Shown here in pieces: positions 3,490-24,300 of a stretch of DNA of 35,273 nt. The first letter of the stretch is position 1. Each line of letters begins with the position of its first letter. The notes under the pieces were generated by a model, which searched no databases, was not told the origin of the DNA, and saw only the letters and a list, made by a program, of their open reading frames with translations. This DNA is from Oscillospiraceae bacterium (GTDB lineage Bacteria > Bacillota > Clostridia > Oscillospirales > Oscillospiraceae): contig JAFSCK010000005.1 of the NCBI GenBank assembly GCA_017436785.1, forward strand, positions 1 through 35,273. Reading direction: 5' to 3'. Both the position numbers and the translations under genes were made by a program.

Positions 3490-3490
3490 C

Positions 3491-5659: not shown

Positions 5660-5676
5660 AGGAGGGGATTTGCATA

Positions 5677-8619
5677 ATGACTGAAACACAAAACGAAATC
5701 GTTCTGTCTGCCAGTGAATATATTCTCTCCCAAAGTCAGAGTGAAACCTATCGCCTGAAAAAAGGTGAGGTTCAGGTTTATATCGTTTCTATGTCGGATG
5801 GCACGCCCGATGGCCGGAAATACTTTTGTACAATCAAAGATACGGACAATCAAAGGGCGATCCCATCTCTGGCATATGCTGATGCTACCGGGAAAAGCTG
5901 GCATATCTTAATTGTTACCACCGGGGAGGAAGCTACCCTTACTTATACCCCCAGTGCACCCACAAGTGTGTTGTTTAAGAATTTTCTGAAGCGTGGAAAT
6001 ATTACAACCTATGAAGAACTGGGTTTTGAAAAAAGTTTGGTCGCGTTTTATGAGGGAAACAGTCAGATCGTCCTTTCCAGTACAGAGCATCACCTTTCGG
6101 AAGACCCTGCCAATGCATACCGTCTGGAGCGCGGCGAAGTCTTTGTCTACATTGTTCCCATGGAAAACGGACATCCCGGCAAACGGGAGTTCTACTGCGA
6201 GGTAAAGGCTTCCGATTCCCAAAGAACGATTCCTGCGCTGGTGTACAAGGATATGAACCACAAAAACTGGCGGCTGCAGATCGAACCCTCCAGCGAGGAA
6301 GCTGTCCTGACACGGATCGTGGATGGTGCAACATCCGAACTACAGAAGGAATTTCTGGCGTGCAGAGAAATTACCACTTATGAAAAAGAGGGCTTCGAGA
6401 ATAGCTTGGTGGAGTTCTATACGAAGCAGATTGTCCTTAAAGACAATGCTTTTATTGAAAAAGCAGAACATGCGGAAACCAAATCTCAGGAAAAGGTCAT
6501 TACTGCGCTGGGCGAAGCTTTTTCAGACGATGGACAAACAGAACATACAGGAAATGACTACTATCAGGCACTTCAGTTTGTCTGCAAACGGTTGGACATC
6601 ACACTGGTGAAAGCAGAGGAGCTTCACACCAGATGCGGAAAAAATCCCCAGATTAACGATATCGCCCGTGCGTCTCATTTCATCTGCAGAAGAGTTGTTC
6701 TGGATGCTGACTGGTATAAATTTGACTGCGGTGGCTTGGTCAGTACCATTGACAAGGAAATTGTTGCCTGTGTTCCGGATAAAAAGGGAAAGTATCAGCT
6801 CTTCCGCAGTTCTGACGGAAGCATTACACCCCTTACCCCTGAACTGGCAAAGCAGGTGTCGCCCCAGTCTTACTCCATTGGCCGCACCCTTCCTTTAAAG
6901 TCCTTGACGAAAAAGGATGTATTTGCCTTCTGTAAAAAAAGCATTCGTGCCAGCGATCTTACACCGTATATCGCTTTGGTGATTCTGTGTACGCTCATCG
7001 GTGTTCTGCTTCCTACGCTGAACGGAATGATTTATGACGACTATATTCCTGTGGGTAATATCGGTAATCTGACACAGCTGTGTCTGGTTATGCTGAGCTT
7101 TATGATGGGTAATATTTCTTTTTCCATCGTCAAAAATCTGTTCAGCTATCGGATTATCAGCCGTGTGAACATCGATTTGCAGAATGCAGTGTATCACAGA
7201 TTGTTTCATTTGCCGGAATCCTTTTTCCGCAGTTATGACAGTGCAGACCTGGCCGGGCGTGTTTCCGGAATCGGCAAGATCGCCTCTGATTATGCCAACA
7301 CGCTGATCGTCAGCGGAATTTCTTCCCTGTTCTCTATTTTTTATCTGATCCGGATGTTTACCTATAACAGCAAACTGACCTGGCTGAGTATTGCCATTTA
7401 CGCGATGTACCTTACGGTTATCGTTGTGATTACATCCACTTCCCGGAAAGGACAGCTGCGGATTGCAGAGGCAGAATCGGAAGCCAGCGGCAAACTGTAT
7501 CAGTATCTGAACGGTGTTGATAAGATCCGAATGGCAGGCGTCGAAGATCGTGCCCTGCTTTCCTATATGCAGCCCTATACCCGGCAGCAATATGAAGCAA
7601 TTCGCGTGAACCGCCTGATCTCTGTGGAAGAAGCTTTGACAACGGTTATTTCCTCTGTCTTCTCCATGGTGCTGTATTGGTTCATCGTAAAGAAAATGGA
7701 CCCATCTGGCTTCTCCGTGGGCAGTTTTGTTGCCTTTAACTCCGCGTTTGGAGCATTTACCGGTGCGCTGGAATCCTTGGTGGATGAGGCGCTGAAACTA
7801 TTTCAGGAAAAGAATGAAATGGAACGATTCTGGGCTATTTTTGAAACGGTTCCGGAAGACGATGACTCCAAAGAGGTTCCCGGTACCCTTTCCGGCAGCC
7901 TGTCTCTCGATCATGTTACCTTTGCTTATGATAAGGGCAGTAAAAATGTCCTGAATGATCTTTCCGTCGATATCAAGAACGGAGAGTATGTGGGTATTGT
8001 TGGTCCTTCCGGTTGCGGTAAGTCTACCTTGTTGAAGTTGCTGCTTGGTTTTGAAACGCCTCAGAGCGGCATGGTTATGGTGGACAGGAAGGATTTGCGT
8101 TCTATCAATAAGGGCGCATATCGCCGTCAGCTGGGTGTTGTTCTGCAGAATGGCAAGCTGATTTCCGGTTCCATTTATGAGAACATTACCATAACAGCTC
8201 CGGATGCCAATATGGCCCGTGTTAATGATGTGATTCAGCAGGTGGGGCTGAAGGATGATATTGCGCAGATGCCAATGGGACTGCACACAATGCTCAGCGA
8301 AAACTGCAATACCATTTCCGGTGGTCAGCAGCAGCGCATTCTGATTGCACGGGCCATTTGCGGTCGCCCCAAAATCCTGATTTTTGATGAAGCCACCAGT
8401 GCGCTGGACAATATGACCCAGGCGGCAGTCAGCAGTAGCCTGGATAAGATGAATGTTACCAGAATCGTTGTGGCACACCGCCTCAGCACCATTAAAAACT
8501 GTGACCGTATTCTGGTAATGGACGGTGGAACCATTGTACAGGAAGGCAATTATGAATCTCTGATGAAAGATAAAAATGGTCTGTTCTATGCGCTGGCAAG
8601 CCGTCAGATCGCAGAATGA
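5677..8619 (+). CDS. NHLM bacteriocin ABC transporter, permease/ATPase (ABC2), with duplicated N-terminal domain
   Basis: A 980-aa ABC half-transporter without a C39 peptidase, the usual partner of ABC1 in NHLM systems. The N-terminus carries two copies of a ~125-residue domain. Copy 1 (about 5-130) has YRLKKGEVQVYIVSMSDG and ITTYEELGFEKSLVAFY. Copy 2 (about 131-250) has YRLERGEVFVYIVPMENG and ITTYEKEGFENSLVEFY. A linker region leads to a membrane domain (about 425-700). The ATPase domain has Walker A GPSGCGKST (776-784), signature ISGGQQQRI (880-888) and Walker B ILIFDEATSALD (Asp904, Glu905). The ribosome site GGAGGGG is 10 bases upstream. From memory, related ABC2 proteins carry one such N-terminal domain, so the doubling looks unusual. 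Confidence 0.93.
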   Translation: MTETQNEIVLSASEYILSQSQSETYRLKKGEVQVYIVSMSDGTPDGRKYFCTIKDTDNQRAIPSLAYADATGKSWHILIVTTGEEATLTYTPSAPTSVLFKNFLKRGNITTYEELGFEKSLVAFYEGNSQIVLSSTEHHLSEDPANAYRLERGEVFVYIVPMENGHPGKREFYCEVKASDSQRTIPALVYKDMNHKNWRLQIEPSSEEAVLTRIVDGATSELQKEFLACREITTYEKEGFENSLVEFYTKQIVLKDNAFIEKAEHAETKSQEKVITALGEAFSDDGQTEHTGNDYYQALQFVCKRLDITLVKAEELHTRCGKNPQINDIARASHFICRRVVLDADWYKFDCGGLVSTIDKEIVACVPDKKGKYQLFRSSDGSITPLTPELAKQVSPQSYSIGRTLPLKSLTKKDVFAFCKKSIRASDLTPYIALVILCTLIGVLLPTLNGMIYDDYIPVGNIGNLTQLCLVMLSFMMGNISFSIVKNLFSYRIISRVNIDLQNAVYHRLFHLPESFFRSYDSADLAGRVSGIGKIASDYANTLIVSGISSLFSIFYLIRMFTYNSKLTWLSIAIYAMYLTVIVVITSTSRKGQLRIAEAESEASGKLYQYLNGVDKIRMAGVEDRALLSYMQPYTRQQYEAIRVNRLISVEEALTTVISSVFSMVLYWFIVKKMDPSGFSVGSFVAFNSAFGAFTGALESLVDEALKLFQEKNEMERFWAIFETVPEDDDSKEVPGTLSGSLSLDHVTFAYDKGSKNVLNDLSVDIKNGEYVGIVGPSGCGKSTLLKLLLGFETPQSGMVMVDRKDLRSINKGAYRRQLGVVLQNGKLISGSIYENITITAPDANMARVNDVIQQVGLKDDIAQMPMGLHTMLSENCNTISGGQQQRILIARAICGRPKILIFDEATSALDNMTQAAVSSSLDKMNVTRIVVAHRLSTIKNCDRILVMDGGTIVQEGNYESLMKDKNGLFYALASRQIAE

Positions 8620-8629
8620 GGTGTAGTTT

Positions 8630-8995
8630 ATGTTAACCAGAAAAATTCAAGATGACGCGATGCTGTTTTATGAGGGCGACCATCTGATTCTTACTGTTAA
8701 CGAAACAGAGGTGGATGGAGGCATTCTGATGTCGCTCAAAGGCGATCTTAAAAGTGAAACAGCCTACCATATTCAGGATGAACTGGATGCCTTTACCACT
8801 GTGGGCATGAAGGTAACCATCGATTTCAAAGAGGTTGTCTTTGCTGCGCCTTCTGTTCTGAATGCTTTGCTGAATTCTCAGCAGCTGATTGATTTCTTCC
8901 GTAAGGGAGAGATCGTGCTGAAAAATATTCCCGGCACGATTTATCAGGAAATGGATGATACCGGTATCACAGAGTTACTAATGATTGAAGAATAA
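8630..8995 (+). CDS. STAS-domain protein, anti-sigma-factor-antagonist-like
   Basis: A 121-aa single-domain protein fitting the STAS fold: LILTVNETEVDGGILMSLKG, then a strand-helix segment VTIDFKEVVFAAPSVLNALL. In SpoIIAA-like proteins the corresponding loop reads DSSG and carries the phosphorylated Ser. Here it reads APS, with Ser75 as the only obvious equivalent, so phospho-switching is uncertain. It sits 10 bases after ABC2 and 16 bases before the TIR-FHA gene, inside a locus with an ECF sigma factor, a Ser/Thr kinase and a PP2C phosphatase. A partner-switching role is reasonable but inferred. No SpoIIAB-type anti-sigma kinase is visible in the window. Confidence 0.75.
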   Translation: MLTRKIQDDAMLFYEGDHLILTVNETEVDGGILMSLKGDLKSETAYHIQDELDAFTTVGMKVTIDFKEVVFAAPSVLNALLNSQQLIDFFRKGEIVLKNIPGTIYQEMDDTGITELLMIEE

Positions 8996-9011
8996 TAGGA
9001 GTTGAAGAAAC

Positions 9012-10529
9012 ATGATTTGCCGCGCAATACCCTTTGAGGGCAGCGAACCGTATCTCTTCGTAAGCTACTGCCATAAGGACCAGGAACAGCTGTATCCCTT
9101 GTTTGAACAGCTGGTTCTGGACGGATATCGCATGTGGTATGATGATGGTAACCACGGTGGCGATGATTGGCTGGAGAATATTGAGAATCATTTGGAGGAC
9201 AGCAGTGCTGTTGTGGCTTTTATCTCGGGAAACTCCAGCCTGTCCCACAACTGTAAATGTGAGATCGTATATGCATTGAAGTGCAAAAAGAAAGTGATTC
9301 CCATCCTGATTGACGACGCGGATCTTCCCAAAGGCCTTCGTATGCAGCTGAGTCATTTACACCATTTGAAACGCAGTGATTTTTCTTCTGACAAAGCACT
9401 GCTTGCCAAGGTATACGAAGCGGAAGAGTGCGCTGCATGCAAGACCACACCCGGTTCGCTGAAACTGAAAGAAGTATCCGCAGCCAAGGAAGCTGATGTA
9501 GAATCAATAAAGGAAGAGGATGACTTCTGGAAGAAGTACAATCCTGCCAAGTTTTCTGGATCAGAAAAAGAAAAACAGTCTGTAAAAACGGATATTTCTA
9601 AAAAGACAGCTTCTTCGGAAGATAAGAAAAAGAAGAAGGTCATTGTTACCGTAAAGAAACAAAAACCGGTAACGCCTGTAACGACTGAGGAAACCCTTGG
9701 AAAAACAGAATCCGCAGAAACTATACAGTCCGCACCTGAGCAAACCGAAGAAAAGCCTGCGGTCAATATTCCTAAAACGGTATTGACAACGGGCAATGAA
9801 GAAAAAAATACAGAGACGGCAGAAGTCAAAACGGAACTGGTGAGCGGCACTTTCGATGACGGTCCCGCAACGGTCATTCTGTCCAACAGTAGTATGCAGG
9901 CCCTTCTCCTTCAGCCTGCGCAGCAGCGTGCCTATATTCTGAGAAAGCCGCAGACAAAAATTGGCCGCTCTCCAATCAAATGCGATGTTGCGGTTGAAGG
10001 AAAAGAGTCCATCAGCAAGATCCATGCGGAAATCATTCAGTATAACGGAAAGTATTTCCTCCGGGATGCCAATTCAACCAATGGCACCTTTGTAAAGGGT
10101 ACGCAGCTGGATACCGGCAGTCAGGTGGAACTGGAGAACCCTGCAGTTTTCTATCTGAATGATGAGCGATTTATTTTGCTTACCAGCATGCTGGCCCGCA
10201 AGTGGATCGGTAAAAAGCAGATTACATTCCTGACCAGAGAAGGAAGTTCTGCAATCCGAATTGTAGATGCGGATGCGGTTGCGTTAAACCGAAACAATCC
10301 CTGGTCGGACGGTACCTTCTCTCAGGATTTCAAAGTGCACCGTGCGGCACATGCTTTGCTGAAGCAGGAAGATGACGGTATCCACCTGGTGGATGAAAGT
10401 CCGGAACCCGGTAATGGCACCTATCTGAATAACAGCCGAATGTCCCACGGAGAATCCCGTTTGCTGTCCTCCGGCGATCAGATTCGCCTTGGCGATACAA
10501 CGCTGGAGTATTATTCGATTACAATTTAA
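9012..10529 (+). CDS. TIR-domain protein with two C-terminal FHA domains
   Basis: A 505-aa soluble protein. Residues ~11-130 form a TIR domain: PYLFVSYCHKDQ, GYRMWYDD, GDDWLENIENHLEDSSAVVAFIS and CKCEIVYALKCKKKVIPILID. Glu84 aligns with the catalytic Glu of NAD-cleaving TIRs. A charged Lys/Glu/Thr-rich linker (~145-285) follows. FHA1 (about 305-385) has GRS (318-320), SKIHAEI (335-341) and NSTNGTFV (354-361), the normal phosphothreonine-binding set. FHA2 (about 405-505) keeps NGTYLNN but lacks a clean GR..S and SRxH, so it may not bind. FHA1 could read marks set by the upstream kinase and removed by the downstream PP2C. The linker is rich in Thr, a possible substrate. Whether TIR acts as enzyme or scaffold is not known from sequence. 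Confidence 0.88.
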   Translation: MICRAIPFEGSEPYLFVSYCHKDQEQLYPLFEQLVLDGYRMWYDDGNHGGDDWLENIENHLEDSSAVVAFISGNSSLSHNCKCEIVYALKCKKKVIPILIDDADLPKGLRMQLSHLHHLKRSDFSSDKALLAKVYEAEECAACKTTPGSLKLKEVSAAKEADVESIKEEDDFWKKYNPAKFSGSEKEKQSVKTDISKKTASSEDKKKKKVIVTVKKQKPVTPVTTEETLGKTESAETIQSAPEQTEEKPAVNIPKTVLTTGNEEKNTETAEVKTELVSGTFDDGPATVILSNSSMQALLLQPAQQRAYILRKPQTKIGRSPIKCDVAVEGKESISKIHAEIIQYNGKYFLRDANSTNGTFVKGTQLDTGSQVELENPAVFYLNDERFILLTSMLARKWIGKKQITFLTREGSSAIRIVDADAVALNRNNPWSDGTFSQDFKVHRAAHALLKQEDDGIHLVDESPEPGNGTYLNNSRMSHGESRLLSSGDQIRLGDTTLEYYSITI

Positions 10530-10542
10530 GGAGTTACACAGC

Positions 10543-11901
10543 ATGAAAATCAAACATCTTGCGATCTTAGCTGGTCTTTGCCTGTTCCTTGCAGGATGTA
10601 GTAAATCCGGACCGGATACATCGTTGCTTAAGGAGTTGGAAACAAAACCTGTGGAAGCAAATGTGCAGGGAAACGGATATTCCCGCAACGAACCTATCGT
10701 GATTTATGAAGAAACATTAAGCAATAATGTGACTTTCTCCCTGCATGAAGACGGCAGGCTGGTGCTTTCCGGCGGAGATATCACAGAAAGCATTGTAGAT
10801 ACCCAGGCCTTTAAAGACTATAAAGAAGATATTTCCATTATCGAGATCGGAGAAAGCGTGTCTTTGATCGGTGAAAAGGTATTCGCGAAAGCGGAAAAAG
10901 TTCAGAAAGTTGTTATTGGCGATGATGTAAGGAAAATCGAATATTATGCCTTTGCCAACTGCACGGAACTGACCCAAGTGGATTTTGGTTCCGGCTTGAC
11001 GGATATTGCGGATTATGCATTCTCTGGCTGTACAAAACTTACCGACGTGAATCTGGGTGGGAGCATTTCCTCCATTGGCGGATATGTATTTTCCGGCTGC
11101 ACCAGTCTGAAAAATGCGATTCTGGGAGAAAACATCCAGAAACTGGGAAATTGTATTTTTGATGGATGTACCGGTCTGACCAGTCTGCGCATTGGCTGTA
11201 ATGTAAGCCAGGCAGCGCTCAGCAACAACACCAAGCTGGTTAGTGTCGTTCTGGAAGATACGGTGGAGCATCTGGAAAGCCGCGCGTTCAGTGGCTGCAC
11301 GGAATTGCAGAACATTACCTTTTCCAATAACCTCAGAACCATTGGGGATTATGCCTTCTCTGACTGCACGAAGCTGAAGGAAATTGCACTTCCGGATAGT
11401 GTGGAGGAAATCGGTGACCGTGTCTTCTTTGGCTGCACCGCAATGTTGACCGCTCAGATTGGCTCCAATGTAACCGCTATGGGCGAACTGCTTTTCAGCG
11501 GCTGCAAGGAACTGAAAACGGTAGAGTGCAATTCCAGCGTCGGTGTGGGAAGTTTCAAGGATTGCGAAACCTTGGAATCCATTACCTTGGGAAGCACAGC
11601 AGCCGCAATCGGAGAGCAGGCGTTCTATGGCTGTAAGAAGCTGCTGGAGGTCACGCTTCCCGAAGGAACCCAGACGATCGGTCCCCGTGCGTTTTATAAT
11701 TGCGAAGCCCTGCGGAAACTGTCGCTGCCCAGTACGATCCAGTCTGTTGGCGCGGAATTTATTTACGGAACCCAGGCTTTGAAAACGCTGCACTATAACG
11801 GTTCTTCCGGTGATTGGAGCAGGGTTGAAAAAGAAGACAACTGGGCAAAGAATGTTCCCGGCGGCGTGGGTTGGATCAACGATTTTGAGAAAAAAAGCTG
11901 A
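10543..11901 (+). CDS. LRR_5 (BspA-type) lipoprotein
   Basis: The ATG at 10543 follows TAAGGAG by 9 bases and gives 452 aa. A lipoprotein signal is present with lipobox LAGC (Cys19), so the mature protein is probably lipid-anchored outside the cell. From about residue 110 it consists of ~23-residue BspA-like leucine-rich repeats of the form IGxxAFxGCxxLxxVxL, for example TDIADYAFSGCTKLTDVNL and RTIGDYAFSDCTKLKEIAL. A short cap, GDWSRVEKEDNW, is typical at the C-terminus of such proteins. It may act as an adhesin, a receptor or a sensor feeding the kinase circuit (inference). The start of the previous gene's stop codon overlaps its ribosome site, so it is in the same operon. Confidence 0.9.
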   Translation: MKIKHLAILAGLCLFLAGCSKSGPDTSLLKELETKPVEANVQGNGYSRNEPIVIYEETLSNNVTFSLHEDGRLVLSGGDITESIVDTQAFKDYKEDISIIEIGESVSLIGEKVFAKAEKVQKVVIGDDVRKIEYYAFANCTELTQVDFGSGLTDIADYAFSGCTKLTDVNLGGSISSIGGYVFSGCTSLKNAILGENIQKLGNCIFDGCTGLTSLRIGCNVSQAALSNNTKLVSVVLEDTVEHLESRAFSGCTELQNITFSNNLRTIGDYAFSDCTKLKEIALPDSVEEIGDRVFFGCTAMLTAQIGSNVTAMGELLFSGCKELKTVECNSSVGVGSFKDCETLESITLGSTAAAIGEQAFYGCKKLLEVTLPEGTQTIGPRAFYNCEALRKLSLPSTIQSVGAEFIYGTQALKTLHYNGSSGDWSRVEKEDNWAKNVPGGVGWINDFEKKS

Positions 11902-11924
11902 TCTGAGAAAAATTTGAAAATTAC

Positions 11925-11951
11925 TGTAACATTTCGATTCCTGCTGTGTAT
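11925..11951 (+). promoter_or_regulatory. Putative ECF sigma promoter, copy 2 (before the phosphatase)
   Basis: TGTAAC (11925-11930), 14 bases, TGTGTAT (11945-11951), about 36 bases before the phosphatase start. The core and spacing match copies 1 and 3. It would give the phosphatase its own transcript in addition to read-through from the export operon. Confidence 0.7.
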
Positions 11952-11986
11952 TAACGGGTAGAGTAAGGTGCAAAGGAGGAATGTTC

Positions 11987-12688
11987 ATGACTTTTCAGTA
12001 TGCAAGTTACAGCAATGTTGGTAAGCGCGAAAACAACGAAGATGCATTTTGCGTAAAGCAAACAGAGCACTTCTTCTGGGCGCTTGTTGCAGATGGTGTG
12101 GGCGGTCATGAAAATGGCGAGGTTGCATCCGGTATTGCGGTGGAGGTTCTTTGTCAACGGCTTGCAGGACAGATTGTCGATGAAGATACACTTGCCTATG
12201 CGATTATGGACGCAAGCGAAGCTGTCCGCAAAAACGCGGGTTCGGGACATACCACAGTTGCCGTGCTTTGGGCGGATGACAGCAATGCGGTTGCAGCCCA
12301 TGTGGGCGACAGCAGGATCTATCACATCCGGGACGGAAAGATCCGATATCAGTCGGTAGATCACAGCGTCGTGCAGATGGCGGTTCTGGTGGGAGAACTG
12401 AAGCCGGAGGCCGTGCGGAACCATAAAGACCGCAACAAACTCTTCCGCGTCCTGGGCGAACAGGAGCTGCCGAGGGTGGACAGCTGTGAACTGACAATAA
12501 AACCCGGAGATCGCTTCCTTCTCTGCTCCGACGGCTTCTGGGAGCCCGTCACAGAGACAGATATGCTTCGTACCGCTTCCGAAACCGAAACGCCGCAGCA
12601 ATGGCTGGATGCGATGATCCGAATCGTGGAGGCTGCAAAAGACCCCAGACAGGATAATTACACAGCAGTTTGTGTGATCGTAAAATAA
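11987..12688 (+). CDS. PP2C-family Ser/Thr protein phosphatase
   Basis: A 233-aa single-domain PP2C/PPM phosphatase that removes phosphate from Ser/Thr using two metal ions. Motifs seen: ENNEDAF (Asp19), VADGVGGH (Asp36, Gly37), HVGDSRIYHI, a LCSDGFWE motif, and DNYTAVCV near the end (Asp223). The metal ligands are all present, so it is likely active. The start at 11987 is chosen because AAAGGAGGA ends directly against the alternative ATG at 11981, leaving no spacing for that codon. It is the natural antagonist of the kinase at the left edge. It stands alone between two copies of the putative ECF promoter. Confidence 0.93.
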   Translation: MTFQYASYSNVGKRENNEDAFCVKQTEHFFWALVADGVGGHENGEVASGIAVEVLCQRLAGQIVDEDTLAYAIMDASEAVRKNAGSGHTTVAVLWADDSNAVAAHVGDSRIYHIRDGKIRYQSVDHSVVQMAVLVGELKPEAVRNHKDRNKLFRVLGEQELPRVDSCELTIKPGDRFLLCSDGFWEPVTETDMLRTASETETPQQWLDAMIRIVEAAKDPRQDNYTAVCVIVK

Positions 12689-12700
12689 TTTCAAAAAAGA

Positions 12701-12727
12701 TGTAACACGTTTCCTGTTGGTGTGTAT
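12701..12727 (+). promoter_or_regulatory. Putative ECF sigma promoter, copy 3 (for the precursor-peptide cassette)
   Basis: TGTAAC (12701-12706), 14 bases, TGTGTAT (12721-12727), 38 bases before the first precursor ATG. Copies at 2076-2102 (minus) and 11925-11951 share the hexamer, the 14-base spacer and the GTGTAT core. No other copy of the site precedes the later peptide genes, so 12766-14533 is probably one transcript. Confidence 0.75.
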
Positions 12728-12765
12728 ATATGATTGAAAGCAAACAGCGAAAGGAGCTTGTTGAA

Positions 12766-13080
12766 ATGGAAAAGGTCATTACCCCCGATCTGGAAGAGAA
12801 AATCAAAGGTGCCGAAACTCTGGACGATCTGGCAAAGGTCTGTGCCGAAGCCGGTATCGACGTAACCAAGGAACAGCTGGAAGCTGAGCTGGCCAAGGAA
12901 GAAAGCGACGAACTGGACGAAACCGCACTGGATGATGTTGCCGGTGGTGCATCCGTCCTCAGACTCGCACTTGGTGCCATAGTCGTCATTTGGAAAAAGG
13001 TCTATTCCGTCAAGAGATCCAGAGGCGGCGGTGGACGTGGCTCCTTTGGCGGTGGCGGCGGTGGCGGCGGTGGCCGCTAA
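12766..13080 (+). CDS. Nif11-like leader peptide precursor 1 with glycine-rich tail
   Basis: A 104-aa precursor. The leader is 61 residues, with LEEKIKGAETLDDLAKVC in the middle and ELDETALDDVAGG at the end, as in the Nif11-derived leader family. Cutting after Gly61 gives a 43-residue core. It begins with a hydrophobic stretch (ASVLRLALGAIVVIW), then a basic part (KKVYSVKRSR), then GGGGRGSFGGGGGGGGGR. The core has no Cys, Ser is scarce and no Thr is present, which argues against a lanthipeptide. The ATG at 12766 is chosen because AAGGAG lies 9 bases before it; the upstream ATG at 12730 is only 2 bases after the -10 element. The leader is nearly identical to that of precursor 2, so the two share an origin. 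Confidence 0.88.
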   Translation: MEKVITPDLEEKIKGAETLDDLAKVCAEAGIDVTKEQLEAELAKEESDELDETALDDVAGGASVLRLALGAIVVIWKKVYSVKRSRGGGGRGSFGGGGGGGGGR

Positions 13081-13152
13081 TAAGTCCAACTGATATTCTA
13101 TGTGGAAATTACATTAATTATTTTATAAATTATAGAAAAGGAGACAATTAAC

Positions 13153-13413
13153 ATGGCATATTTCATTACCCCCGAACTGGAAGAAAAGATCAAGGGCGCG
13201 GAAACTCTGGAAGACCTGGTTAAGGTCTGCGCCGAGGCCGGTGTGGAAGTAACCAAGGAACAGCTGGAGACCGAACTGGCCAAGGCAGAAAGCGAAGAGC
13301 TGGATGAGAACGCATTGGATGACGTGGCTGGTGGTTCTGCTGTACTTGTTTCTGCAGCAATCGCAATCATTGGCACTTGGCATCTCTATAAGTACGGACG
13401 CAAGTGGCGTTAA
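13153..13413 (+). CDS. Nif11-like leader peptide precursor 2
   Basis: An 86-aa precursor with a 61-residue leader ending ELDENALDDVAGG and a 25-residue core. The core begins SAVLVSAAIAIIGTW and ends with a basic aromatic tail, HLYKYGRKWR. The leader closely matches that of precursor 1 over its whole length, while the cores differ completely, the usual pattern of diversified RiPP or bacteriocin families. No Cys in the core. AAAAGGAGA stands 9 bases before the ATG. The amphipathic, cationic core fits a membrane-active peptide (inference). It would be cut and exported by the C39 transporter at 3491. Confidence 0.9.
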   Translation: MAYFITPELEEKIKGAETLEDLVKVCAEAGVEVTKEQLETELAKAESEELDENALDDVAGGSAVLVSAAIAIIGTWHLYKYGRKWR

Positions 13414-13467
13414 GTGTGTTTTTTTATTATGTACTAGAAGTAAACAAAATATATCGGAGGGATCCAA

Positions 13468-13737
13468 TTGAGAGCGAAGTTTGATTATAAGGGGCATAGC
13501 GTTGTTGTAGAACGTGGCTTGCAGGGTGCAAAACTCCTGATTGATGACAAACTCTGTGCTGAGAAAAAGGGTGCTTTTTCTGTTCAATTTGTCAATTTTG
13601 ATCTGAATGGTGAGATTCAAAATACTGATGGTACGATTGATGCTATCCGCATCTCCGTGCGAATTGGTCTGACTCAGGATGATGTGATTTTCTTCTGCAA
13701 CGGCAAAGAAATTGAGTCTACAAAAGTTAGAGCGTAA
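13468..13737 (+). CDS. Unknown 89-aa protein inside the peptide cassette (TTG start)
   Basis: The product starts at TTG 13468, 7 bases after CGGAGGGA; no ATG fits. It lacks a Nif11 leader, double glycine, signal peptide and membrane segment. The sequence reads as alternating short strands (HSVVVERG, AKLLIDDKL, FSVQFVNFDL, IRISVRIGL, DVIFFCNGKEI), so a small all-beta fold is likely. It lies between precursors 2 and 3 and is presumably co-transcribed. Its place suggests an immunity, chaperone or modifying-partner role for one of the peptides, but nothing in the sequence proves this and I do not recognise the family. Confidence 0.8.
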   Translation: MRAKFDYKGHSVVVERGLQGAKLLIDDKLCAEKKGAFSVQFVNFDLNGEIQNTDGTIDAIRISVRIGLTQDDVIFFCNGKEIESTKVRA

Positions 13738-13773
13738 TAATCTTTAAACATGTATTGAAAGGTGAGAGACAAT

Positions 13774-14085
13774 ATGAGTAATGTTCTGGCTAATAAGGCT
13801 GATGTTTTGACTGCAGTATTCAGCAACGAGGCGTTCAAAGCAGAAGCGCAGACTCTGAAGAGTTTGGACGAACTACAGAAACTGCTGGCTAAATACGAAG
13901 TTCAACTGTCTATGGACGAGGTCAAGGAACTGTGTGCAGAAATCGCAGAAGCTGCAAAGGTTAATGATAATGATGAACTGACAGAAGATGCCCTGGATAA
14001 TGTTGCAGGCGGTGTCTGGGGGTACGTTATTCTGGGGGTAGTATGTCTGGGTGCGTTCTGTCTGGGTGTCTATAACACCATCTGA
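13774..14085 (+). CDS. Nif11-like leader peptide precursor 3
   Basis: A 103-aa precursor. The 80-residue leader differs from those of precursors 1 and 2 (FSNEAFKAEAQTLKSLDELQKLL) but ends the same way, DELTEDALDNVAGG. The 23-residue core is almost entirely hydrophobic: VWGYVILGVVCLGAFCLGVY, then NTI, with Cys at core positions 11 and 16. A disulfide or thioether is possible, though no maturase is visible. The ATG at 13774 is preferred to the GTG at 13762, because that GTG is part of the AAGGTGAG ribosome site. Confidence 0.88.
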   Translation: MSNVLANKADVLTAVFSNEAFKAEAQTLKSLDELQKLLAKYEVQLSMDEVKELCAEIAEAAKVNDNDELTEDALDNVAGGVWGYVILGVVCLGAFCLGVYNTI

Positions 14086-14096
14086 TTACCTGATAA

Positions 14097-14204
14097 ATGA
14101 AAGTCTTATTATTAGGGATCATATTGATTCCTATTATGTACTGGCTTGGAACACGAGTAGGAATAATAATCAAAAATAAAAGAAATACGGATAAGGAGAA
14201 ATAA
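14097..14204 (+). CDS. 35-aa membrane peptide between precursors 3 and 4
   Basis: A short open frame encodes MKVLLLGIILIPIMYWLGTR followed by VGIIIKNKRNTDKEK. That is one hydrophobic helix with a cationic C-terminal tail. It starts 11 bases after the stop of precursor 3 and ends 2 bases before the ATG of precursor 4, and its last codons contain that gene's ribosome site (AAGGAGA). It has no good ribosome site of its own, so expression would need reinitiation after precursor 3. Such small membrane peptides often act as immunity factors beside bacteriocin genes. That role is inference, and the frame could be chance. Confidence 0.5.
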   Translation: MKVLLLGIILIPIMYWLGTRVGIIIKNKRNTDKEK

Positions 14205-14206
14205 CT

Positions 14207-14533
14207 ATGTCTATTGAAATGAAGCTGAATGCACTGTTTGGAAACCGTGAATATGTTGAGAAGATTCGTGATCTGACTACTTTGGATGAGATTTATGCTG
14301 CAGTTGTTGCAGAAATCCCTGAGCTGACCAAGGAAGAGTTGGACGATTATTTAGGCCGCCTTTCTGACGCTATGGCAGCAATGGAAAGCGGCGAGCTAAA
14401 TGAATCTGATTTGGACAATGTTGCGGGTGGTGCCATTTTGGAAACCTTGGCAGCGATTGCTGGTATCATCACTTTCTGCTATGGTGCTGGTTGCGCTGTT
14501 GGTGCCGCAATCAAGAAGTGGAGAAACGGCTAA
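14207..14533 (+). CDS. Nif11-like leader peptide precursor 4
   Basis: A 108-aa precursor with a 75-residue leader ending ELNESDLDNVAGG. The 33-residue core contains AILETLAAIAGIITFCYGAG, CAVGAA and a basic end, IKKWRNG. It has two Cys (in FCYGAGC), several small-residue GxxxG-like spacings and a cationic end, like pore-forming unmodified bacteriocins, but homology is not claimed. AAGGAGA lies 8 bases before the ATG. It is the last gene before the strong hairpin at 14651-14685. Confidence 0.9.
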   Translation: MSIEMKLNALFGNREYVEKIRDLTTLDEIYAAVVAEIPELTKEELDDYLGRLSDAMAAMESGELNESDLDNVAGGAILETLAAIAGIITFCYGAGCAVGAAIKKWRNG

Positions 14534-14685: not shown

Positions 14686-14868
14686 TTATTTATAGGCGGA
14701 ATAACCGCGCCTCCTTAGATTGGCTATAGCCCATAAGTACCGTTCTGACACTGTCAATGTCTTCAGCAGGGGGTCGCCCTCCCGGATCCTCAGGGTTCTT
14801 CTGATTTCCTTGGGAATGACGATACGGCCCAGATCGTCCACGCGTCTTACAATGCCGGTTGCTTTCAT
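14686..14868 (-). CDS. Truncated AbrB/SpoVT-type transition regulator
   Basis: The first ~35 residues, ATGIVRRVDDLGRIVIPKEI plus RRTLRIREGDPL, are an almost perfect AbrB/SpoVT swapped-hairpin DNA-binding domain. After GDPL the family usually continues EIF or EIY plus a C-terminal domain. Here it runs LKTLTVSERYLWAIANLRRR and stops at residue 60. The tail has no family resemblance, so the gene has probably been cut or frame-shifted, perhaps by the rearrangements that left the recombinase next door. The N-terminal domain alone could still dimerise and bind DNA. A ribosome site (GAGGAAAG) precedes the ATG. Confidence 0.7.
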   Translation of the reverse strand: MKATGIVRRVDDLGRIVIPKEIRRTLRIREGDPLLKTLTVSERYLWAIANLRRRGYSAYK

Positions 14869-15089: not shown

Positions 15090-15806
15090 ATGGAAAACTT
15101 TAGAGAATATCTAATTCAGGAAGAGAAAAGCGAGCTGACAGTGGAAACCTATGCTGTAGTCAGCGTCAACAGTATGATTTCCGCGATCAATACCTACTTG
15201 CTGTTCATTGGCAGACCGGATTGCCGGGTGAAGACCATCAAGCAGCAGCGGCGGGTATTTATTCCGGAGGAAAAGGAATTGACCAAAGGAGAATATGGAA
15301 GGCTGCTGAAAGCAGCGGAACGGAAACCGCGCCTGTATTTGCTGATGCAGACCATCTGCTCCACCGGTATTCGGGTATCGGAGCACAGATTTATTACAGT
15401 GGAGGCGGCAAAAACCGGATATGCGGAGGTGCGGATGAAAGGAAAACACCGGACCGTGTTTCTGGAAAAGAAGCTGTGTAAGGCACTTTTGCGGTATGCC
15501 AAGGAGAATCACATTACAGGCGGCAGCATCTTTATCACGGCCACAGGCAAACCGATGGACCGATGCAATATCTGGGCAGAAATGAAAAAACTCTGCAGCA
15601 CCGCTGGGGTGCGCAGAGAAAAGGTGTTTCCGCATAATCTGCGGCATCTGTTTGCCAGATTATATTATAGTATAGAGCATGATATTGTCCGTCTGGCAGA
15701 CATTCTGGGCCATAGCAATATCAACACCACGCGGATCTATACGATGGAAAGTGGTCAGACCCACAGAAAGCAGATGGAACGCTTACAGATTTTGTTAACG
15801 ACATAA
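15090..15806 (+). CDS. Tyrosine recombinase with shortened N-terminal domain
   Basis: A 238-aa phage-integrase-family protein. Catalytic set: Arg95 (STGIRVSE), Lys119 region (RMKGKHRTVF), His182 and Arg185 (HNLRH), His208 (LGHSN) and the nucleophile Tyr217 (TRIYTME), so cutting and joining are probably intact. The core-binding domain is short: ELTVETYAVVSVNSMISAIN looks like two ends of a normal SAM-like domain joined after loss of a few dozen residues, with the frame kept. Strong GAGGAGG precedes the ATG. The stop codon lies inside the left arm of an inverted repeat (15801-15823), whose partner is at 16069-16091, so the natural inference is that this enzyme, or a complete relative, flips that segment. 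Confidence 0.85.
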   Translation: MENFREYLIQEEKSELTVETYAVVSVNSMISAINTYLLFIGRPDCRVKTIKQQRRVFIPEEKELTKGEYGRLLKAAERKPRLYLLMQTICSTGIRVSEHRFITVEAAKTGYAEVRMKGKHRTVFLEKKLCKALLRYAKENHITGGSIFITATGKPMDRCNIWAEMKKLCSTAGVRREKVFPHNLRHLFARLYYSIEHDIVRLADILGHSNINTTRIYTMESGQTHRKQMERLQILLTT

Positions 15807-15823
15807 TGTAGATTATGTTGTGC
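15801..15823. repeat. Left inverted-repeat site of a putative invertible promoter segment
   Basis: The 23-bp element begins ACATAATGTAGATTATGT and ends GTGC after one base. It matches the reverse complement of 16069-16091 at 21 of 23 positions. The element is itself a dyad (ACATAAT...ATTATGT with a 4-base centre), as expected for tyrosine-recombinase binding arms. It includes the recombinase stop codon. Confidence 0.7.
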
Positions 15824-16068
15824 GCTCATGTGATCTGCGAGGAAGGATACCGGAATCTGTGCAGCTTTTTTCTCTTAAGAAATAAAAAATCGCAGCAAAT
15901 ACCCGGCCACGGAATCCTGACGGAATCCGTGACCTGCATTACTGCGCATATTTTTACTAGATTGTTAAAAATTGTTAAGTACTGAAGATTTTTTATTTAA
16001 TTATTTCCGGTGATGTTGATTTTTTACAGGCACTGTGCTATTATAGCATGCATAAGAATGTCTGCTGA
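15824..16068. other. Putative invertible segment carrying a promoter
   Basis: This 245-bp AT-rich non-coding stretch lies between the two inverted repeats. It holds a hairpin (15908-15931: CACGGA and TCCGTG outer arms) and, near its right end, a good rightward promoter (16016-16044). In the present orientation the promoter points at the zinc-ribbon gene and the surface-protein genes behind it, so this would be the ON state. Flipping would point it back into the recombinase. No coding sequence is seen. Confidence 0.6.
16016..16044 (+). promoter_or_regulatory. Extended -10 promoter inside the invertible segment
   Basis: TTGATT (16016-16021), exactly 17 bases, TATTAT (16039-16044), with TGC directly before the -10, which makes an extended -10. 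Transcription would start near 16051, cross the right repeat and enter the gene at 16144. Confidence 0.65.
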
Positions 16069-16091
16069 GCACGACATAATCAACATTATGT
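16069..16091. repeat. Right inverted-repeat site of the putative invertible segment
   Basis: Its reverse complement begins ACATAATGTTGATTATGT, one base different from the left site over that span, then ends CGTGC against TGTGC. The central four bases agree at three positions in inverted orientation and poorly in direct orientation, which favours inversion over excision. Confidence 0.7.
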
Positions 16092-16143: not shown

Positions 16144-17064
16144 ATGACTTTGCAGGATTATTTTGCGGATCATACGCAAATGGCGGCAATGTGGCATCCG
16201 GAACGAAATGCGGATCTGAAACCGGAAGAAATAACTTTTGGCAGCCGCAGATATGCCTGGTGGCAATGCGGCCGAGGCCACGAGTGGCAGGCGATGGTGT
16301 ATTCTGTGACAGCAGGCTGTGCATGTCCCTATTGCTCCGGCAAGAAGATCATTCCCGGAGAAACAGATCTGGCTACAACCCATCCGGAGCTGATAGAACG
16401 TTGGAGCGAAAAGAATACGCTGCTGCCTGAAGAGGTTGCTGCCGGCTCCGATAAACGTGTGCTGTGGGTTTGCGAGAAAGGCCATGAATGGGAGGCCCGG
16501 GTATCTGCAATTACTGCAGAGGAGGGCAGTGGGTGTCCTTACTGTGCAGGCAAGCGGGCCATTCCCAGAGAAACGGATCTGCAGACCCTGCGGTCGGACA
16601 TCATGGAGCAGTGGGATGGGGAGAAAAACCGGGGGATCGACCCGGGAAAGGTGCTTCCTTCGTCCCATGAGAAGGTCTGGTGGAAATGTGCACTGGGCCA
16701 TTCCTGGCAGGCAATGATTTTTGCCAGAACCCGGGAGAATAGCTCCGGCTGCCCCTACTGCACTGGCCGCCAGGTGCTGGCCGGATTTAATGATCTTGCC
16801 ACATTGAAGCCCAAGGTGGCGAAGGAATGGTATCAGAGTCTGAACGGTACGCTGCGGCCGGAGGATGTGACCCTGGGCAGCAACAAAAAGGTGTGGTGGC
16901 AATGCAGCGATGGCCACGTCTGGCAGGCAGTAATTTATTCGCGGACGAGAAAGAAGCACGCAGGCTGCCCGATCTGTGCCAGTGTGGTAAAGGCTCCCAG
17001 AAAAACAGAGACCGCCATAAGAAAGGCAAAATCCCGTGTGGCTGATAATCGCCCCCGGGTTTGA
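16144..17064 (+). CDS. Zinc-ribbon repeat protein (DUF4379-like, four units)
   Basis: A 306-aa soluble protein made of four tandem treble-clef or zinc-ribbon units. Each has a form close to WWxCxxGHxWxAxxxxRTxxxxGCPYC: WWQCGRGHEWQAMVYS, LWVCEKGHEWEARVSA, WWKCALGHSWQAMIFA and WWQCSDGHVWQAVIYS, each followed by a CPYC or CPIC pair. Four zinc sites with CxxH/CxxC-type ligands are likely. The family often accompanies nuclease or DNA-binding domains, but no nuclease domain is present here. The ATG at 16144 leaves a 6-base gap after AGGAGG; the ATG at 16138 abuts that site. It is the first gene after the invertible promoter, so it may be a regulator of the surface genes behind it (inference). Confidence 0.8.
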   Translation: MTLQDYFADHTQMAAMWHPERNADLKPEEITFGSRRYAWWQCGRGHEWQAMVYSVTAGCACPYCSGKKIIPGETDLATTHPELIERWSEKNTLLPEEVAAGSDKRVLWVCEKGHEWEARVSAITAEEGSGCPYCAGKRAIPRETDLQTLRSDIMEQWDGEKNRGIDPGKVLPSSHEKVWWKCALGHSWQAMIFARTRENSSGCPYCTGRQVLAGFNDLATLKPKVAKEWYQSLNGTLRPEDVTLGSNKKVWWQCSDGHVWQAVIYSRTRKKHAGCPICASVVKAPRKTETAIRKAKSRVADNRPRV

Positions 17065-17096: not shown

Positions 17097-18239
17097 ATGA
17101 GTTTATTTAAGAAAAATGCCGGCTTTACGCTGGTAGAACTGATCGTTGTTATCGCCATCCTCGGCATCCTGGCCACCGTGGCGATCCCCAGCTACAACGG
17201 CTACATTGAAAAAGCCCAGATCGCAGGCGACCAGCAGGAGCTGCACAACCTGAACCTGGCCTTCATTGCTGCCTGCGCTGAGGAAGGCGAGAGCAACATT
17301 GGCAGAACTGACGTAAGTGTCAGCCTGAATGCAGGTAAAGCCGTTGTTACTATCGGCAATGCAGACATCGCAGCCAACTTTGCCGGGTACTACGAGGCAG
17401 GCGAGTTTAAGTACTACACTGCACTGCATTACATCAAGGCTACCGGCGAATTTTCCGATGAAGCCCCTGGCCTGATGAGCGATACCGGCTATCGTAAGGA
17501 ATATGCCGATGCTGCCAAGGATTACTACGACAGCAATAACAGCTACCTGGGTGCGGAAGATGATTTGCTGGACACCGTCAGCACCTTCTCCACTGCCCTT
17601 TCTGATTTCCTGAATGATGATGCCAAGAAGGAAAAGCTGCTGTCTGACCCCAAGTTTGCCGCTTTCCTCGAGGCTAACAGCATTCCCGAGGACAACACCG
17701 AAATGATTGGTAAGGCCATGGTTTTGTATGCCGCTCAGGAGCTGTCCGATGTGAACCCCTCCGCAATCCACACAGGCCTGGTCAGTGGATACGATGCTGC
17801 GAATAACAGCTTTGATCTGTTTGACATGTCCACCATTATGCATGGTGAGGATGTCACACCTGCCGAGTTGGCGCTGGACGGTGCAGCTCTGGCTGCTGTC
17901 ATTGCTGGCTATGTCAACAGTGACTATGCTACTCAGGCGGCCAAGGACTACTTCACAAGTGAACAGGAGTCCGTGAAGGGTGCGGGTACTCTGATCACCT
18001 ACCTGAACGGTGTGGTTGGCGCCGGTGTCACCACCGACGAAAATGGTGTCAAGAACGACAGCTTTGCACAGTATTTGAACAGCAGCCAGGCTACCACCGA
18101 TATCCAGGCCTTTACTGGCGGTCTGGGTGCGGTTCACTATGGCTCTGAAGATGTTTTGGATGCCTTTGCAAATGATGGAGACCTGGATGCTGTCCTGGAG
18201 CAGATTCTCACCGGTCAGTGGTCTGGTGCTGAAGGTTAA
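17097..18239 (+). CDS. Large type IV pilin-like protein
   Basis: A 380-aa protein with a class III/type IV prepilin signal: SLFKKNAG, then FTLVELIVVIAILGILATVA. Cleavage would fall between Gly9 and Phe10, and the conserved Glu5 of the mature protein is Glu14. The large C-terminal part is acidic, rich in Ala, Asp and Ser, and apparently without Cys. It is far longer than usual major pilins (about 150 aa), so it may be a minor or tip pilin, or a pseudopilin. A second pilin-like gene with an almost identical N-terminus lies at 32309. No prepilin peptidase or assembly ATPase is in the window. AAGGAAC precedes the ATG. Confidence 0.88.
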   Translation: MSLFKKNAGFTLVELIVVIAILGILATVAIPSYNGYIEKAQIAGDQQELHNLNLAFIAACAEEGESNIGRTDVSVSLNAGKAVVTIGNADIAANFAGYYEAGEFKYYTALHYIKATGEFSDEAPGLMSDTGYRKEYADAAKDYYDSNNSYLGAEDDLLDTVSTFSTALSDFLNDDAKKEKLLSDPKFAAFLEANSIPEDNTEMIGKAMVLYAAQELSDVNPSAIHTGLVSGYDAANNSFDLFDMSTIMHGEDVTPAELALDGAALAAVIAGYVNSDYATQAAKDYFTSEQESVKGAGTLITYLNGVVGAGVTTDENGVKNDSFAQYLNSSQATTDIQAFTGGLGAVHYGSEDVLDAFANDGDLDAVLEQILTGQWSGAEG

Positions 18240-20476: not shown

Positions 20477-21315
20477 ACCAGCAAGGCCGCCTTGACGGAA
20501 AAAAGCAGCGGGTGTGGGAGATCGATGCCCTTCGGGGATTTCTGATCCTTTCCGTGCTGATCAATCATCTGAATATCACCGTCAATGCGTTTTGCATCAA
20601 TGGTTACTACAATATCGATTCTGCCATGTTTGCGCGGATCTCGGATCCTTTGGGAGTATGGTATACCTATGATGCGGAGGGAATCCTTCGCTCTGCGGAT
20701 TGGGTACTCAATCTGCGGGAATCCTGTAACTTTTTGGCTGTGGACACTTTCTTTATTATTTCCGGCATTGTCTGTAGCTTCAGCCGGAACAATCTGAACA
20801 GGGCGCTGCGTATGCTGGGCGCCGGTGCCTTTGTGGCAGGATTTACGAAGCTTCTGGCTGTATGGACGGGGGATCCTACCCGGTTTATCCGCTTTGGCGT
20901 GCTGTTTTGCTATGCCTTTTGTCAGTTGATCTATGTCTATTTTTTAGAGAACAAAAGCAACAAGATACTGTTGCTGGCGATGATTCCTCCTTTTGTTCTC
21001 GGCTATTTATTTCGATATTATAACGTGGAGCCCACAAGGCTGCCGCTGTTGTATATATTCGGTGTACCGCAGCTGGGGAATGTTTCCAGCGACTGGTGGC
21101 CGATTTTCCCTATGCTGGGTTGGTTTCTGATGGGGGTCGTTTTAGGAAGGCGGTTTTACTTTGAAAAGAAGACCCGCATTCCTTGTCCCTGGGTCAGCCG
21201 TCTGACGGCTCCCCTTCAGTGGCTGGGCCGCCATAGCGGGATCATCTATGTGAGCCATATTGTTATTTATACTGCCGTATTCTGCGGTATCGGATATCAT
21301 TTTGGGCTTTTGTGA
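20473..21315 (+). CDS. Membrane acyltransferase of the HGSNAT/DUF1624 type
   Basis: A 280-aa polytopic membrane protein. It begins with the family signature RVWEIDALRGFLILSVLINHL (His32 the likely catalytic residue), followed by seven or so hydrophobic segments, TFFIISGIVCSFSRN and a final GRHSGIIYVSHIVIY. The family is related to heparan-alpha-glucosaminide N-acetyltransferase and moves acyl groups across the membrane. It starts within the stop codon of the acyl-CoA synthetase and ends 13 bases before the giant surface protein, whose ribosome site GAGG overlaps its TGA. Its target may be a surface glycan or protein of this locus. No direct evidence for that. Confidence 0.85.
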   Translation: MNQQGRLDGKKQRVWEIDALRGFLILSVLINHLNITVNAFCINGYYNIDSAMFARISDPLGVWYTYDAEGILRSADWVLNLRESCNFLAVDTFFIISGIVCSFSRNNLNRALRMLGAGAFVAGFTKLLAVWTGDPTRFIRFGVLFCYAFCQLIYVYFLENKSNKILLLAMIPPFVLGYLFRYYNVEPTRLPLLYIFGVPQLGNVSSDWWPIFPMLGWFLMGVVLGRRFYFEKKTRIPCPWVSRLTAPLQWLGRHSGIIYVSHIVIYTAVFCGIGYHFGLL

Positions 21316-21328
21316 GGTTGTTACCAAT

Positions 21329-24300
21329 ATGAAAAGGACTTCTAAAAAACTCAATACCAAGCTGGTTGGCATCCTCATTGTCGTGCTTACGGCAGTGTAT
21401 CTGTTTGCCAGCTCTGCCATTGTAATGATGACGGTATATGCTGCGAATGCAGCAAATATCACCTTCGAAGCTGATCATCTTTCCTGGGGCGATGTATCTG
21501 CATTTGATGCTGGTGCTTATAATAATACGAACTGTCCGTTTAATATTCAGAACGAAGGAAAAGAATACGTATATTATACCAGCACTGCATCTAAGAACCA
21601 AACGACAGCCACCCAAAACGGATATAAGCTCTACGGTGAATTAACAATTAAAAACAGAAGCGGTATTACAGACGGAGAAGCGCTGACAACATACACGGTT
21701 GATAAATTCTACGGCGGACTGACAGCAAAGACATTTGTGTCCGCTGACGAAACAGGGTTTGACATTCCTGTGGTTACTACCGGCGGCACCTGCAGATACA
21801 GCGTGGTTCCCAATTCTGTCGGTAGCTACAGAATCTATGTGTATTCTGAAAAAGGTAAGCCCATAAATACTTTCCACTATGCTTTGTTGGAAGATTATGA
21901 GTCGAACAATGACTTTAGCAATGAAATAAAGATAGCCCGTACATTTAACCAGGTTTCGGGTACAAACTGGTATTATACGGACCTGACAGTAAACTATCTG
22001 TCCTGGAAAGGCTACGAAGTAAGTCTCACACCTACGAACAAAAGCACCAGCAGCTCGCCGAGTGATAACGGAGCAGGTACATATGCAAAGTCTCAATCCA
22101 CAGTATTGAACAATGAAACGTACTATTATAATAATTGGACAGTAACTGAACATACCTATAATACAGTTCTGGCCATGGAATTTACCAGTGATGTAAAACT
22201 GGGTCCGGTCACCAAGACCGGCGATACCCTGAGCGTGACTTCCGGCAGCGATGGTACACTCGAGGCAATAAACATCTTCGGAGAACCGGTGACCCTCAGT
22301 GCCGATGGTACAGCTATCCCCCATATGCCCATTTACTTTACGGCCCAGCCTTCCGGAGATGCTCAGTTCACCGGATTTACCGATGCTGCGGGTAAAGAAG
22401 TTTCAGTAAGCGACATTACCGTAGGTGATAAGACCTACACTGAATATCTCTTCACGGGTACTGCCCAGCTTACGGCAAAATGGGAAAAAATGGTGAATTT
22501 CCCCACGGTGCAGATTTCCGGCCCCAAAAATGCAACACTGCATTTTTACAAGAGCAAAGAGCAAACCGATTCCTTCCTGTATGGTTTCGCCACCCAATAT
22601 ACCTTTACGACGAACTATACCGATGCGGTGGATGCGACCGTCCAGTATTCTGTGACCCGGGACGGAGATGTGGTGGAAACCGGAACGCTTTCGAAAGACG
22701 GAACCCAGTCTGTTACCCTGACTACCCAGTGGGAAGACGAGTTTGCGGTGACATTCACCTCATCCTATGATGGTGTAGAGGGTAGCGTGACCTTCACCGC
22801 TGATTCTTACACCACCGGATTGGAGCCGGTGGCAAAAATCGGAAGTACCAACTACTACACGCTGGAGGATGCTCTGACAGCATCGGTCAGCGGAAACACG
22901 GTGGTTCTGCTGAAGGACTATACCTTCCAAACCGAGAACAGGAAAGCGGTCTGGGGAAATATGAATGACGGTACCGGTTCCGGTTATACCGTCAGAAGCG
23001 GCGTTACACTGATCGTTCCCTATGCAGCCTCCTATAAGTATAATAATGATAGTAAGCATCCCTATGCCTGTGAAGCAAAAGTCGACTCCACCAGCGGAAC
23101 AGGCGGCGCCAAGCCCGGGGACAGCAATACTTATATGACCCTTACCGTTCCCACCGGAGTAAACCTGACGGTGGACACCAAAGGTATCATGGCTGTGGGC
23201 GGCACCACCAACGGTGTGGAAATGATCGCGGGAGGGCCCCATGCGGATGTGAAGCTGCAAAGCGGCGCAAACATAACGGTGAAGGGCAGTCTCTCATCCT
23301 GCGGCTTTATCTACGGTGACGGAAATCTTACTGCTCACAATGGTAGTGCCGTTTATGTTCCCTTCACAGTTCATGACTTCCGTGGCGGCGGCTATACTGT
23401 TGGCTCGGCAGGCCCTCTGGATGGAGAAGGATTAGACCCGATAACGGATGAGAAAGCAATCACTCCCTTCATGAGGTATTCTTTCCAGGCGATCCAATGT
23501 GACCAGCGGATCCATAATGGTGCGGTTGTGATCGCATATGCAGACCTGTATGCCAATAGCAGTCATCAAAATTCCAATTCGTACATCATCAGCAGTGATC
23601 CCTCCAATGCTTTGCTGGCGCTGACCGGTGAGGGGGCTTATGTGGATATCTCTTACGATGGAGATCTGTATGCCTCCACCTATCCCGCCGTGGGAAAGAT
23701 GCGCCTGGAGGTTAACGGCGATGCATCATATGGAGGATTGGAACTGACGGTAACCGCGGGCAAAACCGTAACGGTGGACACCCGGCAGATCAACTTCGTG
23801 CTTCCTTACAACTTTGATGTCCGGATCGTCAGTGGAACCTTTACTGTTCCCAACAGCATCATGCTTCTGCCCGGTGCCAGCGTTACCGTAGATTCCGGCG
23901 CAACGATGAATGTCACCGGTGCCCTGACCGTATATGACGGACTTCACGACTATACTACCAACGGTAAGGAAACCGCAGACCCGGTGGTCTTGAGCACCTA
24001 TGCGGCAGACTATCCGGATGTTGCGACGGTTACACCAGGCAACAATTATCCCAGCTCTGCGGTTTTGATGGGTGGTCCCTTCTACGGCAGCGGCGCGGCA
24101 GACTTGATCATAAACGGCACCCTGAACCTGAAATCCGGATCTTCTCTGGGTGGTGTTGTTCAGACATCAAGCACCGGCAGTGCAAGAATCAACACGGATG
24201 CATCCATGGGTACCAGCACTACTACGCAGATCGGCATGACAGGTCATTACAGTGTTAATTTGATCATTGCGCAGAAAGAATACTCCTATGCCGGTGCTAC

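Follow-up and report, generated by a model that had tools for sequence, protein, structure and literature searches.

The window analysed here, a stretch of 35,273 nucleotides from an Oscillospiraceae bacterium, is an entire contig (C37), one of the 174 that make up a 3.05-Mb assembly. Its forward strand encodes, at 15090–15806, a tyrosine recombinase of 238 residues in which the catalytic domain is present (Pfam Phage_integrase, 1.2e-24). The end of this gene lies within the left one of two short arms, a putative recombination site at 15801–15823 on the plus strand, and the right arm follows at 16069–16091 on the minus strand. Between them lies a predicted invertible segment of 245 bp (15824–16068). 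A consensus-type promoter match within this segment, TTGATT-N17-TATTAT with the extended -10 motif TGC, spans 16016–16044 on the plus strand, the -35 element being at 16016–16021, the spacer 17 bp long and the -10 element at 16039–16044; it reads rightward to the genes behind the right arm (the ON orientation), as a first reading made from the sequence only had described. A hairpin that resembles a terminator and runs into a T tract faces the recombinase on the minus strand (15884–15947, limits approximate and set by eye), and the best hairpin energy in the segment is -35.0 toward the recombinase and -6.5 away from it. The first gene behind the switch (16144–17064, plus strand) encodes a four-unit DUF4379 (treble-clef zinc finger) protein (Pfam 3.8e-76), with aaggagg before its ATG. 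The second (17097–18239, plus strand) encodes a pilin-like protein with an N-terminal methylation motif (Pfam N_methyl, 6.5e-09; TIGR02532 above cut-off), in agreement with the pilins that had been announced downstream.

Other features of the window were mostly named by eye. A small AbrB/SpoVT-like frame lies on the minus strand at about 14690–14868, immediately upstream of the recombinase. The region 2118–14533 bears a likeness to a peptide export cluster, with an HlyD-like protein, a peptidase-ABC exporter, a second ABC protein, a TIR-like plus FHA-like protein and a series of small proteins with a leader motif of the DNVAGG/DDVAGG type, all recognized by eye, as well as a PP2C phosphatase with a match to NF033484 under the cut-off. 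At 21260–30436, a frame of 3058 residues looks secreted and shows repeat units near its end.

The two arms, of 23 nt each, are inverted and complementary at 21 of 23 positions (91%), with a spacing of 245 nt. Each is in itself a dyad, ACATAAT-N4-ATTATGT, and the recombinase frame ends with ACA TAA inside the left arm, all of which confirms the sequence-only reading. The inverted repeat has a score of 17. Mononucleotide shuffling of the 2-kb region, done 300 times, never gave more than 13, and elsewhere in the window the best 2-kb tile reaches 15. Within the 3.05-Mb assembly, the 23-bp arm pattern with up to three mismatches has three copies, namely the two window arms and one arm on a second contig, C93, and the exact 18-bp core pattern has four, two in each place. 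Of 400 dinucleotide shuffles of the segment, 5 were as good as its best promoter score; the window promoter, at 9.8, stands below the median of the family described below (10.3), and a match on the opposite strand scores 9.1. The fragmentation into 174 contigs and an estimated contamination of 7.34% (with an estimated completeness of 91.4%) could be taken to suggest that the arrangement is due to chance or to an assembly artefact, an explanation that deserves practically no credit against a repeat score unmatched by shuffling and an architecture that recurs on C93 and in relatives. Composition was also tried as a means of recognizing contamination in the bin, and was discarded because tetranucleotide profiles give no separation between its own contigs and genomes of the same genus.

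The unit on C93 is a paralogue with the same gene order: a full-length recombinase, 76% identical to that of the window, a perfect 19-bp inverted pair 244 nt apart, a DUF4379 protein and a pilin. These are the sole two places in the assembly where DUF4379 is found. The centre of the right window arm, GTTG, is identical to that of both C93 arms, and the left window arm has GTAG instead, one of the two arm-to-arm mismatches thus sitting in the middle of the site; since both C93 arms read GTTG, the window left arm, located within the 3′ end of the recombinase gene, is probably the altered one. The best promoter match of the C93 segment, TTGAAA-N17-TATTAT, points toward the recombinase and away from the DUF4379 gene, and promoter and terminator are opposed both there and in the window. 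Direct comparison of the two segments leans to the inverted sense (best inverted stretch 27, same-sense stretch 23; the highest value among 500 shuffles was 25 and their 95% point was 22), with shared stretches of about 25–30 bases that are near chance and too short to rest on, and the opposite promoters of the two places are for this reason suggestive only. About 12 kb away, the C93 contig also encodes two T2SSE-type ATPases, and the neighbours of these genes, named by eye, resemble further type IV pilus genes.

The same arrangement is found in relatives. Recombinase matches at 1e-40 occur in 16 of 60 genomes, the window's own among the 60, and 14 of the 25 loci from this search (L002 and L011–L034) have an inverted pair of window type. 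The other 11 have none; many of them sit at contig ends, and L022 and L024 are pairless despite full flanks. At least 540 relatives turned up when species genomes were scanned, and the best 80 of them, mostly from animal and human gut Clostridia and one from Holdemania, were kept and combined with 16 IMG/VR contigs into 96 loci. This choice favours full-length recombinases, and several loci are paired within one MAG (e.g., L066/L071, L073/L077 and L054/L087), so the loci do not represent independent species. Enough 3′ flank was available in 82 of the 96, the remaining 14 being too short, and 76 of these 82 show an inverted pair with a score of at least 15 immediately 3′ of the recombinase gene, compared with 1 of 72 controls upstream and 0 of 68 controls 2.5 kb downstream. 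No such 3′ pair was seen in the other 6 (L068, L096, L097, L111, L117 and L121), and L119, one of the 76, has a repeat of another type. Relatives deprived of one of the repeats had been named in advance as an argument against a switch, and what is found is mostly the opposite. In the unit of the relatives, a recombinase of about 270–290 residues, with its N-terminal and catalytic domains whole, stands directly before the left arm, and the arms, about 160–360 bp apart, follow the pattern ACATAA-N6-TTATGT, which both window arms fit.

Two variations of the arms were noted in this set. A subgroup (L063, L073, L077, L103 and L141) has arms near ACGGAAT/ATTCCGT rather than ACATAAT/ATTATGT, which perhaps reflects a changed specificity of the recombinase. 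In L105, from Fournierella massiliensis, the inverted repeat is 100 bp long (8717–8816 and 9080–9179), and its distal arm holds a copy of the recombinase 3′ end in addition to the site. By title, none of the matches listed in a literature search on ACATAAT and inversion is about a unit of recombinase and ACATAAT sites.

The arms are conserved across 91 pairs, a count that takes in L119 and the duplicate pair L131/L132; it is at the four central bases that they vary, with 63 different centres. Within a pair, the centres are identical in 89 of the 91, and those that differ are in the window and in L119, which has a repeat of another type. As the pair search could itself favour matching centres, single sites were also searched regardless of the centre in a set of 97 loci (without L132, L031 and the contig-end loci of the 60-genome search, and with L022 and L024 added), which gave at least two sites in 76 loci, one in 5 and none in 16. 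In 74 of these 76 two-site loci the 6-bp centres are reverse complements of each other, and in none do they match in the direct sense only; 56 different centres are represented, and 1000 permutations of the partners gave a mean of 1.8 matches and never more than 8. Besides the window, the other exception is L087, for which the single-site search picked up a stray third site and whose pair is perfect in the pair search; with this stray site set aside, the window is the sole centre mismatch among the 76. Matched centres of variable sequence are expected to persist where a tyrosine recombinase exchanges strands across the centre.

When L119 and L132 are removed from the 91 pairs, 89 segments are left, 54% of which have a best promoter score of at least 10.3, compared with 0.9% of 445 shuffles. 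Among the 69 segments that score at least 9.5, the promoter is directed toward the recombinase in 59 and away from it in 10, the window being one of the latter. As the -10 element is located 13–57 bp from the arm ahead in 67 of the 69, the two classes are mirror images, and the predominance of promoters toward the recombinase suggests that, in most of these assemblies, the genes beyond the distal arm would be in the OFF state. A family rule by which promoter and terminator oppose each other was considered and rejected (29 opposed, 23 in the same sense and 39 without a clear call, n=91).

Alignment of homologous loci reveals segments of opposite sense. Between L131 and L144, the segment aligns inverted (118/161) and the flanks in the same sense (603/762 on the distal side, 324/452 on the recombinase side), and a weaker case is found for L060 and L084 (segment score 40 inverted versus 22; same-sense flanks 410/613 and 553/784). 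For L107 and L114, the segment is inverted (139/172), the recombinase side is in the same sense (657/799) and the distal 800-bp flanks do not align, and the segments of L085/L114 and L065/L129 are in the same sense. Opposed segments between collinear flanks are, as judged from these alignments, the trace of inversion in nature, seen between different species or paralogues rather than between two states of the window locus. On a side note, L131 and L144, with their opposite segments, are IMG/VR contigs in which the unit stands before ParB-like genes.

Two explanations that dispense with a switch can be weighed at this point. The arms might be the integration (att-like) sites of a mobile element, since relatives of the recombinase occur on 16 IMG/VR contigs and the L107/L114 comparison, in which the recombinase side aligns and the distal 800 bp do not, suggests a unit changing its context. 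We regard this as very improbable in view of centres that match inverted in 74 of 76 loci and in the direct sense only in none, of the short distance between the arms (merely about 160–360 bp) and of family promoters far above chance. It is scarcely credible either that the arms do not recombine and are operator dyads bound by a regulator that controls the promoter; each arm is a good dyad and the promoter is near one arm, but operators would have no reason to carry locus-private, pair-matched centres or to bracket segments that are inverted between relatives. The conserved unit, the pair-matched private centres, the mirror-image promoters and the inverted homologous segments thus bear out the earlier reading of an invertible promoter beside a recombinase, and the window element is, by comparison with its homologues, an inverton by descent.

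The cargo of the unit was scanned in 72 of 88 first frames, those set aside being from viral loci, among the shortest or, in a few cases, on the other strand. Listeria-Bacteroides repeats were found in 13 of these first genes, BspA-type leucine-rich repeats in 5, collagen repeats in 4, cohesin in 4 and S-layer domains in 3, counts that can overlap, so domains of surface proteins are the commonest; helicase and regulator domains also occur. DUF4379 is the first gene in 2 of the 72, the window and its C93 paralogue. In a survey of the genus (81 genomes, own included), DUF4379 occurs in 11 genomes, and the combination of DUF4379 and pilin was discarded as the usual cargo: in 24 DUF4379 loci from all 11 genomes, covered to about 1.5 kb on each side and with the C93 place not among them, it is solely at the two window loci that the recombination sites occur together with the motifs of the pilin and the recombinase.

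Compared with the unit of the relatives, the window matches in the position of its recombinase and in the catalytic domain, and differs in two respects: the centres within the pair are not identical (GTAG/GTTG), and the N-terminal domain is incomplete, which makes the window a relative of the unit and not an intact member. The recombinase is devoid of 32 residues of the N-terminal core-binding domain (residues 23–54 of the paralogue), a gap present in the window row alone, 1 of 17 aligned recombinases; judged by the structure of XerD, the missing stretch would correspond to roughly two of the four DNA-clamping helices. With two rare lesions at the same locus, loss of self-driven flipping is the likeliest reading, and, as the window and C93 arms are nearly alike, the paralogue may still flip the segment in trans. 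The window copy is thus probably damaged, being locked ON or else dependent on the paralogue, acting in trans, for any flipping. Its sequence gives no support to present-day flipping, considering the shortened recombinase and the mismatched centres.

Some features count against damage: the recombinase frame is open, the columns invariant across the catalytic domain hold for the window too, and the substitutions that separate it from the paralogue are mostly silent (dN 0.17, dS 1.6; pN 0.15, pS 0.67). The open frame, the conserved catalytic domain and the mostly silent divergence would equally suit a switch that is fully active, with the shortened recombinase working alone or with partners and the central mismatch being tolerated. 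This is a possibility that we consider rather unlikely, given that the 32-residue gap belongs to one of 17 recombinases and that a mismatch of the centres is as rare as 2 of 91 pairs (window and L119) or 2 of 76 loci (window and L087).

All together, the comparisons make us fairly confident that the element is a promoter inverton with its own recombinase, whose window copy is probably frozen ON or only rarely flipped, perhaps by the C93 paralogue. In the proposed mechanism, the recombinase would bind the two ACATAAT/ATTATGT dyads and exchange strands across the central bases, thus turning the 245-bp segment. In the orientation of the assembly, transcription from the promoter would pass the right arm and continue into the genes for the DUF4379 protein and the pilin, which would be expressed (ON). 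With the segment turned, the promoter would be directed at the 3′ end of the recombinase gene (OFF), and the hairpin and T tract would then face read-through from that gene. The two lesions of the window copy point to a recombinase that has ceased to flip its own segment. A more speculative extension, to which we give limited credence, is that shared arms and a locus-private core act as an address that prevents cross-reaction between switches, and that the window, an orphan in the ON state, would be flipped or held only in trans by the recombinase of C93, itself OFF, which would in this manner choose between two DUF4379-pilin operons.

A number of reports describe comparable switches. Inversions in Clostridia have been reported from read evidence (PMC5903667, available part). 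The RecV switches of Clostridioides difficile resemble the window in having a tyrosine recombinase, short inverted repeats and a small segment; RecV, however, serves several switches, the repeats of which are described in that part as unrelated to one another except for Cdi2 and Cdi5 (PMC5903667), whereas in the window one recombinase gene is located directly beside one segment. Promoter invertons with a nearby recombinase are also known in Clostridia from a defined gut community, where, in the available part of the report, inverton group 139 comprises 33 invertons, 32 of them from Clostridia, and its association with invertase group 35, a nearby tyrosine-type recombinase/integrase, is the most significant inverton-invertase link of the study (PMC11892184). 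In the two examples for which coordinates are printed, the repeats are separated by 206 and 228 bp, and both changed their orientation ratio over culture passages (PMC11892184, same part). Group 139 and the window are alike in geometry and gene type, the sole points compared; the window copy has a shortened recombinase and mismatched centres. Judged by geometry and gene type, group 139 and the window unit are probably of the same kind.

In the case of the E. coli fim switch (FimB/FimE), a promoter on a short invertible segment has pilus genes behind it and tyrosine recombinase genes beside it, a layout that the window shares in its promoter segment, its pilus-type genes and its adjoining tyrosine recombinase. 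The fim segment is given as 296 bp in the available part of PMC5903667. The fim genes encode chaperone-usher fimbriae, whereas those of the window are type IV-like pilins. Assignment of the window to the E. coli fim type was rejected, as its recombinase scores 25 bits against NF007370 ('tyrosine-type DNA invertase', presumably standing for FimB/FimE-type enzymes), far below the cut-off of 221. Matches to solved structures are nearly full length for the C93 paralogue (4a8e, 5hxy and 1a0p, E 5e-21 to 2e-16) and, by the names that the depositors gave them (XerC-like, XerA and XerD), indicate Xer-like relatives, none of which is, to our knowledge, a promoter invertase.

The window is thus a promoter inverton of a known kind, and its interest lies in its damaged state and in a core that is common to two switches. 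A switch before a pilin gene is now placed in a lineage of gut type. From a methodological point of view, the sequence rule that emerges, a recombinase 3′ end followed by ACATAA-N6-TTATGT twice with centres matched in inverted sense, makes such switches findable in assemblies for which there are no reads, and, as a mismatched centre is rare among the loci compared, the rule may also flag damaged switches. Finally, since the window and C93 switches share one core, the notion of a private core as a barrier to cross-talk within a genome becomes testable.
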